Below, piece by piece: positions 57,100 through 60,598 of a stretch of DNA of 64,000 nucleotides. The first letter of the stretch is position 1, and the number at the start of each line of letters is the position of its first letter. The stretch is from Promethearchaeota archaeon. GTDB taxonomy: Archaea > Asgardarchaeota > Lokiarchaeia > Sigynarchaeales > SOKP01. Both the position numbers and the translations under genes were made by a program. The stretch covers positions 24,946 to 88,945 of the forward strand of contig JAUWBH010000002.1 in assembly GCA_030605085.1 (NCBI GenBank), given 5' to 3'. The notes beneath the pieces are model-generated. The model saw nothing but the letters and a program-made list of their open reading frames with translations. It was not told the DNA's origin and ran no database searches.

Positions 57100-57495
57100 A
57101 TGTTTGATTACGATGAATATAACAGATGGATGAATGAAGCAGAAAATACATTTAAGTCGGCAATAGTAGACAAAGATAATGGATATTATAATTGGTGTTG
57201 TTTTAAAAGTCAACAGGCTGGATAATTTGCGTTAAAAGCACTTTTGTATGGTTTGGGATTCACACCCTTTGGTCATTCGTTAACTAAACTAATGGGAAAT
57301 CTAAAAAATCAAAAAATAAATGTTTCTACAATCTCATCATCATGCAAAAAGTTAGATTTACATTACATTCCATCTCGTTATCCAAATTCATATCCTTCAG
57401 GTTCACCATATGAATATCATGATGAGTCGATAGCAGAAGAGGCTATAAAGAATTCTGAAAATGTCATTAATTTTGTGAAGAGTGTTAAAAAATGA
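57100..57495 (+). pseudogene. HEPN-domain gene with in-frame TAA
   Basis: From ATG 57100 the frame reads YDEYNRWMNEAENTFKSA, then NWCCFKSQQAG, a TAA (57223-57225), and continues without further stops: FALKALLYGLGFTPFGHSLT to TGA 57493-57495 (131 codons plus stop). In HEPN proteins this helix reads QQAAEFALKAL, so TAA replaces Glu (GAA). The GHSL motif of the family is present. The coding part after the stop (from TTG 57244) gives 83 residues and lacks the first helix. The gene overlaps its MNT partner by four bases. A likely inactivated toxin. Confidence 0.8.
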
Positions 57496-58341: not shown

Positions 58342-59403
58342 TCACTTTTTCAACCTTTGTTTTAATTTTTCTGAGATTAAATCTCCCATTTCGTTAGTTG
58401 AAAGAGTTTTAAGGTTTGGATTTGTAACATCAATTGTTCGTCCTTCTGTAAGAGCGTCCTCGACCGCACTCTCAATTTCTATTCCTATTTTAGATTTAAA
58501 AGATTCTTGCATCATTAATTTTACGCTTAAGATCGTTCCAATTGGATTAGCTACATTTTTTCCGGCAATGTCGGGAGCAGATCCGTGAATTGGCTCGTAC
58601 ATTGAGACTTTACCAGGATGGATGTTTCCACTTGATGCCATTCCTAAACTACCTATGAGAATCGCCCCTTCGTCGCTAATTATATCGCCAAACATATTTC
58701 CAGTTACAACTGTCTTGTATGCATAGGGAGTTCTGATAAGCCATTGGCAAAAAGCATCTACATATATATCCTCCGTCTGAATATCTGGATATTCTGAACT
58801 GATCTCATGAAAAACTTTGCGCCATAATTGGCTGGGTTTCAGAATATTAGCCTTATCTACTGATGTAATTTTGGTGTGGCCCATTCTTCCTGCAAATTCA
58901 AAAGCAAATTTAATTATACATTCACATCCTTTCCGAGTATATAGCATGATATTCTGAGCTTCATCTTCTTTTAAATATCCAATATTTTTATAAAGCCCCT
59001 CAGTATTTTCTCTTATAAAAAATATCTCAATCCCCTCACCGATAAACTCATTCTTTAAAGGACACCGATCTCTTAGAGCTTCGTATAATTTTATCGGTCT
59101 CAAATTCACATATAAATCTAAATCTTGTCTTATCTTAAAAATTGCGATCTCGGCAACTCCTTGTGGCAAACTCGGAATTCCAATAGCTCCAAATAACAAC
59201 GCATCGGAATTTTTAATCGTTTCAAACGATTTTTCAGGCAAACTTTCTCCATATTTTTTCCATATGGCGCCTCCCGCAGGAGCTTCTTGAAATTCAAACT
59301 CAAAATCAGTGTAATCGTTAATGATATTTAATATTTTTAAACCCTCAGGAATTACTTCTTTACCTACGCCATCGCCTTCGGTAAATGCGATCACTTTTTT
59401 CAT
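58342..59403 (-). CDS. Isopropylmalate/isocitrate dehydrogenase-family enzyme
   Basis: A 353-residue beta-decarboxylating dehydrogenase. Motifs are GDGVGKEVIPEG, ALLFGAIGIPSLPQG, the substrate-binding LDLYVNLRPIKLY, FIRENTEGLYKNIG, VDKANILKPSQLWR (catalytic Lys), GNMFGDIISDEGAILIGSLG and EPIHGSAPDIAGK. LeuB-type (isopropylmalate) is likeliest; homoisocitrate or tartrate dehydrogenases share this pattern, so I give no gene symbol. No other leucine genes are in the window. The Asp-rich NAD site (EPIHGSAPD) suggests NAD rather than NADP. Confidence 0.88.
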   Translation of the reverse strand: MKKVIAFTEGDGVGKEVIPEGLKILNIINDYTDFEFEFQEAPAGGAIWKKYGESLPEKSFETIKNSDALLFGAIGIPSLPQGVAEIAIFKIRQDLDLYVNLRPIKLYEALRDRCPLKNEFIGEGIEIFFIRENTEGLYKNIGYLKEDEAQNIMLYTRKGCECIIKFAFEFAGRMGHTKITSVDKANILKPSQLWRKVFHEISSEYPDIQTEDIYVDAFCQWLIRTPYAYKTVVTGNMFGDIISDEGAILIGSLGMASSGNIHPGKVSMYEPIHGSAPDIAGKNVANPIGTILSVKLMMQESFKSKIGIEIESAVEDALTEGRTIDVTNPNLKTLSTNEMGDLISEKLKQRLKK

Positions 59404-59907
59404 AAGACATAAACTCTCAAAATTTCTTTATATTATATTAATTTTATAAAAATTTTAGATTTAAGAGATTTTGTAAAAATTTTTGAAGGAAAAAAAGCAG
59501 AAAAAAAGCATTTTTAAAAATCAATTAAAATATTACAGTTTTTCTCAAATTTAATTTCAAAATTCATTATTAAATTATTGGTTCATTAAATTTCTATTTT
59601 TAATTTAATATTTCAGACGAGAAATTTAATGGATAAAGATAGAATGCCCATATAATTCAAAATAAAAAAAAATCTTAGATCTCTGGGCTCAGAACTATTT
59701 CTATCGTTTCAAATTTAAGACATCGCAATTTTGTCGATTGGATGAAATTTGAAAATTTATTAACCAAAACATATTCTATCGAAAATTTAACGCAACCTTT
59801 AAATATTTAAAAGAAGTAATATTATTTAATAAAGTTCAGATTGAAAAATGTGGACTTTACAAAAAAAATTTTATGAAAATAATTATAAAGTGGAGGAATG
59901 ATAAGAT
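59404..59907. other. Intergenic region, 504 nt, with histone promoter
   Basis: AT-rich spacer between divergent genes. The only supported element is the promoter-like sequence upstream of the histone gene. A-rich runs at 59490-59515 and several short T/A blocks occur; no ORF or RNA gene was recognised. Confidence 0.45.
59791..59806 (+). promoter_or_regulatory. BRE/TATA-like promoter of the histone gene
   Basis: CGCAACC followed by TTTAAATATT has the layout of an archaeal BRE and TATA box, about 100 nt before the histone ATG. The predicted start near 59830 would give a leader of about 75 nt. Confidence 0.45.
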
Positions 59908-60156
59908 ATGGCAAAAAAAGTTTTCGCTTGGAGTCCGATCAGAAAATTGATGAAAGATAATGGCGCTGAAATGGTTGCTCGAGATGCAGTCGATGCTTTA
60001 ATTGATTATTTAGAAAAAGTAGCTAAAAATATTACAAATAGAGCTCTTGAAATGACGAGACACGCGGGTCGGAAGAATTTTTAACGCGTTACGCTTTAAA
60101 ACTTTATATTGACCCTAAATGATATGGACATAGCGATGAAACTCGCTCAGAAGTAA
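59908..60156 (+). pseudogene. Archaeal histone gene interrupted by a 30-nt palindromic insert
   Basis: ATG 59908 follows GGAGG (59892-59896). The frame encodes KKVFAWSPIRKLMKDNGAEM and ALEMTRHAGRKN, a typical archaeal histone fold, then hits TAA at 60082-60084 after 58 residues. The same frame resumes at 60109 with LTLNDMDIAMKLAQK and TAA 60154-60156. Removing exactly 30 nt (60079-60108, two stops) gives 72 residues whose end aligns without gaps with the end of HMfB (HAGRKTIKAEDIELAVRRFKK). The extra 30 nt contains a hairpin. Status may be pseudogene, truncated histone or something recoded. Confidence 0.75.
60079..60108 (+). other. 30-nt insert with hairpin inside the histone frame
   Basis: The segment separates codons for RKN from LTLNDM. 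Positions 60079-60101 fold on themselves: TTTTAA pairs with TTAAAA, then one C-T mismatch, then GCG pairs with CGC around a TTA loop. It contains two in-frame TAA codons. The exact ends can slide by two bases. Confidence 0.6.
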
Positions 60157-60178: not shown

Positions 60179-60598
60179 TTATATCATTTTTTTTTTTTTT
60201 TTTTTTTTAATTACAGGTTTCAGTTTTTTGTATACAAATGTCTCTTTTGCTTTTTTCATCTTTTCTTTATATATTATATTCTCTTTCTTTAATTCTTCTT
60301 CAGACTTTCGAAAGAATTTCAGGATGTCTTCATTCCAATAATTATTGTTATCGATAAACCTAAAATTTTTTGTCTCAAAATTAAAAATTAAGGCACTATG
60401 AGAACCACGATCCCGTAAGTAATACCAATTCTCCCGCTCGCTAGATGATACATGAGGAGTGTTCTCAAAAAAATCTATTGGAAATAATTGTAAGCATCTT
60501 AAGACTTGTAAAGGATTAAACCCCATTTTTTCCTCTAGAGTCTCAGCACAAGCCTCTATTACTCTATTGAAATTGTGATTAAATTCAAAATTGCTCAT
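60179..60598 (-). CDS. Small soluble protein of unknown function with poly-Lys end
   Basis: A 139-residue acidic-to-basic protein (EFNHNFNRVIEACAETLEEK at the start, then NPLQVLRCLQLFPIDFF, RENWYYLRDRGSHSA). It ends in a lysine run (VIKKKKKKKMI) encoded by a 22-base A tract on the coding strand (T tract at 60187-60208), which is prone to slippage. Family not recognised. A plausible charged tail, but the exact C-terminus is uncertain. Confidence 0.65.
   Translation of the reverse strand: MSNFEFNHNFNRVIEACAETLEEKMGFNPLQVLRCLQLFPIDFFENTPHVSSSERENWYYLRDRGSHSALIFNFETKNFRFIDNNNYWNEDILKFFRKSEEELKKENIIYKEKMKKAKETFVYKKLKPVIKKKKKKKMI

Follow-up and report, generated by a model that had tools for sequence, protein, structure and literature searches.

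The pre-mRNA of crenarchaeal cbf5 reportedly carries an intron of the bulge-helix-bulge (BHB) type, whose motif is the substrate of the archaeal tRNA-splicing endonuclease, a finding attributed to Watanabe in 2002, Yoshinari in 2006 and Yokobori in 2009. BHB introns have also been predicted for XPD and Fen1. The BHB introns of archaeal tRNAs and rRNAs have the motif geometry in common with the element described here, and presumably the enzymes, the host in our case being an mRNA. According to the available text of PMC11291895, tRNA introns are very abundant in Atabeyarchaeia and Freyarchaeia, which are other Asgard groups. In Haloferax volcanii, a BHB element in the mRNA of HVO_1309 is processed in vitro (available text of PMC7714728); it is likewise a BHB element in an mRNA, but it lies in the 5' UTR and splits no coding frame. 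The same 2020 paper states, in its available text, that besides its own 5'-UTR case the cbf5 intron is the only other BHB intron reported from an archaeal mRNA. Predictions in other protein-coding genes, together with putative viral introns of 12 bp whose splicing was not demonstrated, are cited in the available text of PMC2738675, where Asgard archaea are absent from the cited predictions. Our literature search (subscription journals and preprints lay largely outside it, and uL11 and zinc ribbons were not searched by name) found no description of introns in protein-coding genes of Asgard archaea, histone genes included.

In the window, i.e., the whole 64-kb stretch of Lokiarchaeal DNA that was analysed, a histone gene is interrupted by an insert of 30 nt. 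We conclude with high confidence that this insert is a BHB intron in the histone pre-mRNA, predicted to be excised from the RNA.

The interrupted histone gene and its predicted BHB element

The unspliced histone frame (59908-60084) ends after 58 residues, and the insert contributes two stops to it. The same frame reopens downstream with LTLNDMDIAMKLAQK and runs to a stop at 60154-60156. The first 57 residues match Pfam PF00808 (E 8.7e-9), and exon 1 also matches PDB chains of HPhA, HMfB and HMfA. An earlier, sequence-only reading of this DNA is confirmed as regards the start of the histone, both in-frame stops, the excess of 30 nt and the downstream frame, which is open and histone-like. That reading placed the insert at 60079-60108; its length of 30 nt is correct, whereas its boundary lies one base too far right, because alignment with the intronless Lokiarchaeotal orthologue L001 and with intron-bearing L046 puts the gap at 60078-60107. 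This register was also preferred because it gives RKK, with its invariant lysine, whereas 60079-60108 gives RKN. Excision of 60078-60107 joins CGG AAG AA to A TTG, giving RKKLTLNDMDIAM with an RKKLT junction, and results in a complete 72-residue histone; it brings back the second K of RKK, invariant in relatives in a 32-row family alignment whose rows were chosen among 120 listed homologues. A total of 204 homologues were found, with 75-91% identity among the 120 listed, which, where named, are mostly Lokiarchaeota/Promethearchaeota. HAGRKKLTxxDMxLAMxL or a near variant forms the C-terminus of most of these 120 proteins, and ten of them look interrupted at one or both gene sites, by our own reading and at the protein level only.

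Table 1 Features of the histone locus and of the predicted BHB element, in window coordinates
Feature	Position	Strand	Basis or remark
Isocitrate/isopropylmalate dehydrogenase gene, conserved neighbour	58342..59403	-	PF00180, E 6e-101
GGAGG, Shine-Dalgarno-like	59892..59896	+	Sequence; upstream of histone start
Archaeal histone exon 1, 56 codons + 2 nt, MAKKVFAWSP...HAGRK AA	59908..60077	+	PF00808; homologues
Outer exon-exon helix, 5' arm GGGTCG	60066..60071	+	Pairs with 60110-60115
Central 4-bp helix, 5' strand GAAG, in exon 1	60072..60075	+	Best BHB register
5' bulge AAT, predicted cut after 60077	60076..60078	+	BHB rule, cut between bulge residues 2 and 3
Predicted BHB pre-mRNA intron, 30 nt, phase 2	60078..60107	+	Top scan match; exact gap versus L001
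Inner intron hairpin, TTTTAA/TTAAAA + GCG/CGC, loop TTA, 23 nt	60079..60101	+	Fold, best register
Central 4-bp helix, 3' strand CTTT, in intron	60102..60105	+	Best BHB register; absent from minimum-energy fold
3' bulge ATA, predicted cut after 60107	60106..60108	+	Best BHB register
Exon 2, A TTG ACC ... AAG TAA = K/LTLNDMDIAMKLAQK stop	60108..60156	+	Family C-terminus KLTLxDMxLAMxL
Outer exon-exon helix, 3' arm TGACCC	60110..60115	+	Pairs with GGGTCG
22-T run, compatible with an archaeal oligo-T terminator	60187..60208	+	Sequence; function inferred

The layout of 60066-60115 (50 nt) is that of archaeal BHB introns: two 3-nt bulges, AAT and ATA, lie around a 4-bp helix (GAAG/CTTT) at the exon-intron borders, and cutting between the second and third residues of each bulge yields exactly 60078-60107. 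Position 60109 is probably unpaired too, so that the 3' bulge possibly comprises 4 nt, as in a relaxed BHB. Folded with both exon arms, the 50-nt element gave a z of -2.7 against shuffled sequences, 1 of 200 shuffles being as good; in its minimum-energy fold, a symmetric alternative takes the place of the central helix. A 56-nt fold without most of the 5' exon arm was uninformative (z 0.15 versus shuffles). By a BHB score that is ad hoc, and under which candidates below the top few mostly look like chance in all scans, the element is the best site on both strands of the 64 kb (39.1), followed by a site at 35.6 with an ORF filter or at 37.9 (42 nt) without the filter. Twenty shuffled windows contained a mean of 1.25 sites with a score of at least 39 at lengths of 22-45 nt, and 0.1 at lengths of 28-32 nt. 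The insert starts with TTTTTA and ends with TTTAT; GT...AG ends are absent and it is not of the spliceosomal type. With 30 nt it is too short for the catalytic core of a group I or II intron. No Rfam match at gathering score was found in the window, and ARAGORN found no tRNA in the 64 kb.

With regard to the genomic neighbourhood, 31 of the 64 histone loci, a set in which contig ends cut some loci short, gave a match to the dehydrogenase gene, among them intron-bearing L043, L048 and L051 as well as intronless L001. The other four of the five window neighbours compared with these 64 loci gave no match. GTGGAGGAAT is also found 5' of the start in L001 and in L007/L040. A minus-strand ORF convergent with the histone (60179-60598, 139 aa) has no Pfam match at E <= 0.01, and its lysine-rich end lies in the 22-T run. 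A HEPN-domain gene at 57100-57495, with a PF05168 match on its downstream piece, was considered as a further intron carrier and rejected, as it contains a single in-frame stop and no intron-like insert; the gene after it has what we take to be a nucleotidyltransferase-like motif.

Probable introns in related histones and in other protein-coding genes

The histone search of genome contigs gave 64 loci, seven of which carry inserts of the BHB kind. The sequence-only reading had proposed to check the same locus in sister genomes; this check revealed an insert at the window's site (site 2) in four further assemblies (L043, L046, L048 and L051), making five copies with the window, all of 30 nt. The remaining three have their inserts at site 1, between MAKK and FAWSP (L037, 29 nt; L040, 32 nt; L041, 29 nt), while L090, a histone paralogue in the genome of L046, has two inserts at two further sites. 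For all ten histone introns, window included, the best structural BHB register is also the register that restores the family sequence, in a test restricted to the element with 12 nt of flank at either end. The restored junctions are RKKLT, KKVFA, MKHNGA and ITRND; the junction peptides were computed for nine introns and that of the second L090 intron was read by hand. L001 has the exact empty site: the aligner places its gap at 60078-60107, and L001 agrees fully with the window over the 19 nt that precede the insertion point and the 9 nt that follow it.

The exon arms differ from site to site. The central helix is AAAG/CTTT in L043, L048 and L051 and has one mismatch in L041, and the outer helix of the second L090 intron is almost absent. 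The folds of the L048 and L051 elements were not superior to those of shuffled sequences (z -0.06 and 0.94, respectively). Exon pairing was higher in the loci with an intron than in those without, both at site 1 (3 vs 50 loci, p 0.001) and at site 2 (5 vs 57 loci, p 4e-4), kinship being ignored in both comparisons. The lowest pairing score of an intron-bearing locus was reached by 9 of the 57 intronless loci at site 2 and by 1 of 50 at site 1, and the outer arms of intronless L001 are the same as those of the window; outer arms also pair in genes without an intron.

At E <= 1e-18, there is one histone orthologue in each of the seven intron-bearing genomes except G002, which has two. The two in G002, L007 without and L040 with an intron, are near-identical including their flanks and lie on the same chromosome; several differences between them are found near the intron site. 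Comparison of exon 1 with L001 gave a pS of 0.44 and a pN of 0.06, which indicates purifying selection, and the 12 codons of exon 2 gave a pN of 0.15 and a pS of 0.68. In the histone of another Lokiarchaeote (L053, 2440-2560), an odd stretch lies between FAWS and RKLMKDNG and is perhaps a longer insert.

BHB scans covered ~673 kb of G005 and 800 kb of G002, both genomes having been picked partly for their known histone copies, which served as controls. In G005, two zinc-ribbon paralogues are interrupted exactly between CPK and CG. The zinc-ribbon protein has matches in 58 of the 83 genomes of the class; 53 copies, down to E 4e-19, were examined and 50 were scored, 17 weaker matches being left out. 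The set excludes L271 and L275, in which the pattern was absent, L276, which was left undecided, and L278-L280, which had been fetched twice. A BHB intron between CPx and CG was present in 29 of the 50 scored copies, and CPxC was unbroken in the other 21. Intron lengths were 28 nt (n = 1), 30 nt (10), 31 nt (12) and 32 nt (6), so that 19 of the 29 are not a multiple of three. Cuts between the second and third bulge residues restored the protein in 29/29 cases when anchored on the expected junction, and 14 of these introns were also found by a scan without the junction anchor. The central helix is complete in nine and has one mismatch in 20. Among 24 distinct zinc-ribbon introns, mean pairing was 15.2 with their own arms versus 7.1 with swapped arms, a difference reached in 0/2000 permutations; mean exon-exon pairing was 17.9 in copies with an intron versus 12.5 in those without (p 6e-6, kinship ignored). 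The gene tree (50 rows), built by a quick method from exon 2 alone, requires 11 switches of intron state, and starred branches force at least five of them. On L187, an 11.9-kb contig of G005, interrupted zinc-ribbon genes have as neighbours genes with AAA and SAVED domains as well as a weak SMODS match, a setting resembling a defence island.

The two best candidates of G002 were ribosomal protein uL11 (28 nt), which matches PF00298 and, less strongly, PF03946, and a CinA/MoaB-like protein (30 nt), identified by PF00994. uL11 had matches in 74 of the 83 genomes, and the best 30 loci were analysed: by our own reading, the frame stays open throughout in 12 of them and is interrupted in 18. BHB excision restores the uL11 consensus at four positions within 17 codons. 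Restored junctions were obtained at 11 loci, with introns of 28-36 nt, and in addition at L330 and L331 in the position-anchored test; when the position anchor was removed, the matches in L331 were no plausible junctions. At the position between PPI and GPA, the sole restored junction is that of L346 (35 nt). The interrupted loci L324, L333, L336, L337 and L339 gave no restored junction at the thresholds used, and the BHB junction scan reported nothing in the 12 read-through loci. The first patterns scored 15/30 uL11 and 1/30 CinA loci, and looser ones were used for the final counts. For the CinA/MoaB-like gene, 1 of 30 loci was interrupted among the matches listed, some genes with short frames (e.g., those of G029, G030 and G032) being left out. 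The uL11 genes L324, L330 and L333 apparently contain two introns each within about 20 codons. The hairpin loops of the histone, uL11 and L090 introns often read AACTC, ATCTC, ATTTC or AAGTC, followed by G, as if they were related copies.

The second 400 kb of G002 contained 16 BHB candidates, none of them convincing. Besides the control histones, the scans yielded two genes in ~673 kb and two in 800 kb, and from this yield, a small sample, we guess that a genome may contain ten introns or more.

Proposed splicing of the insert and competing explanations

In the proposed mechanism, GGGTCG of exon 1 would pair with TGACCC of exon 2, the GAAG/CTTT helix would separate the two bulges, and the intron would close with a hairpin of its own. 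On the model of crenarchaeal cbf5, each bulge would be cut by the tRNA-splicing endonuclease between its second and third residues (3' of 60077 and 3' of 60107); the exons would then be joined, probably with RtcB as the ligase, into the complete 72-residue histone. The sequence and anatomy of the element, its precise presence or absence among relatives, its conservation and the enzyme genes of the sister genomes are direct observations. Every one of the 17 intron-bearing relatives searched (17/17) had two PF01974 genes and an RtcB match, three of the RtcB matches being partial. The two PF01974 paralogues would fit a hetero-oligomeric endonuclease, a kind of enzyme that, according to the available text of PMC6379350 and PMC2738675, tolerates relaxed motifs, in Crenarchaea also outside tRNA. 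Cleavage and joining of the RNA in living cells, and the part of the endonuclease and RtcB in it, are inferred.

Of the four options that the sequence-only reading had offered, our results support removal from the RNA, in the form of a BHB intron, and each of the other three (a dead gene, a 58-residue protein and translational bypass) is disfavoured. A random or transposed 30-nt insertion that killed the gene would agree with the two in-frame stops and with an uninterrupted reading of only 58 residues. We regard such a pseudogene as very improbable, since five assemblies share the position of the insertion to the base and keep the downstream coding sequence, the interrupted histone is usually the sole orthologue of its genome, pN is well below pS, and the insert has BHB anatomy with matching arms in other genes. 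That the insert length is exactly divisible by three, earlier brought forward as an argument against decay, has little weight, because the site-1 histone introns are of 29 or 32 nt and 19 of the 29 zinc-ribbon introns are of 28, 31 or 32 nt. Orthologues with the same insert and no conservation downstream had been named as counter-evidence; those found keep the histone C-terminus downstream of the insert. The occurrence of the same insert in separate assemblies makes assembly error very unlikely as its source. The family C-terminus, kept by exon 2 in all five copies read with DNA, also speaks against a truncated histone of 58 residues as the real product, with the remainder as an untranslated tail. 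The open frame for such a product exists, and the predicted proteins P0005 and P0069, with 61 residues, are similar; but unspliced site-1 copies would give a peptide of 23-24 residues, just the first five of which are histone, and this explanation is extremely doubtful.

Translational bypass, in which ribosomes would hop over the insert as they do in T4 gene 60, could draw on 9 of the 37 introns tested, all nine of them zinc-ribbon introns (9/29), in which the triplet preceding the gap is repeated at its end. Matched take-off and landing codons occur in none of the eight histone introns tested, however, the window having AAG and ATA; the gaps of 28-32 nt fall in several phases, and the recurring feature is the pairing of the exons with bulges at the cut sites, so that hopping is most improbable. 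The near-identical L007 and L040, one without and one with the intron in a single chromosome, could also reflect a programmed excision from the DNA itself, or a mobile element that only part of the population carries. We give this the least credence of all, because the inserts are present in many assemblies and the arms keep pairing despite sequence change, with the exons joining the fold, which points to RNA.

Comparison with known introns

It is reasonably likely, in our judgement, that Lokiarchaeia harbor shifting BHB mini-introns of ~30 nt in their protein genes, perhaps at least ten per genome, which have undergone repeated gain and loss at positions that lie near one another without being the same. 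If so, many Asgard genes annotated as truncated would be intact, and mRNA splicing by tRNA enzymes would be routine in archaea near the origin of eukaryotes. Such introns could be the reason why some genes in Asgard MAGs look broken or truncated, and they could have consequences for gene surveys based on ORF calls; the matched orthologues with and without introns would provide a tractable system for the study of intron gain and loss. Loss of the cbf5 intron through replacement of the gene by reverse-transcribed spliced mRNA is proposed in the available text of PMC2738675; a replacement of this kind would explain the exact empty sites seen here.

In comparison to cbf5, the introns described here are found in other genes (histone, uL11, zinc ribbon and CinA/MoaB-like) and in another phylum, with several genes per genome, several positions per gene and lengths mostly of 28-32 nt (up to 36 nt in uL11). 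The mechanism is already known from crenarchaeal cbf5, whereas the Lokiarchaeal histone and ribosomal-protein mRNAs appear to be new as substrates. Eukaryotic spliceosomal introns and introners are many and short, and show turnover between relatives. The Lokiarchaeal introns are likewise short and show turnover, but they have no GT-AG ends, and their recognition, in contrast to that by the spliceosome, would be by structure. By analogy, the Lokiarchaeal mini-introns, if our reading of them is true, would be an equivalent of introners that depends on tRNA enzymes, in the archaea closest to eukaryotes.
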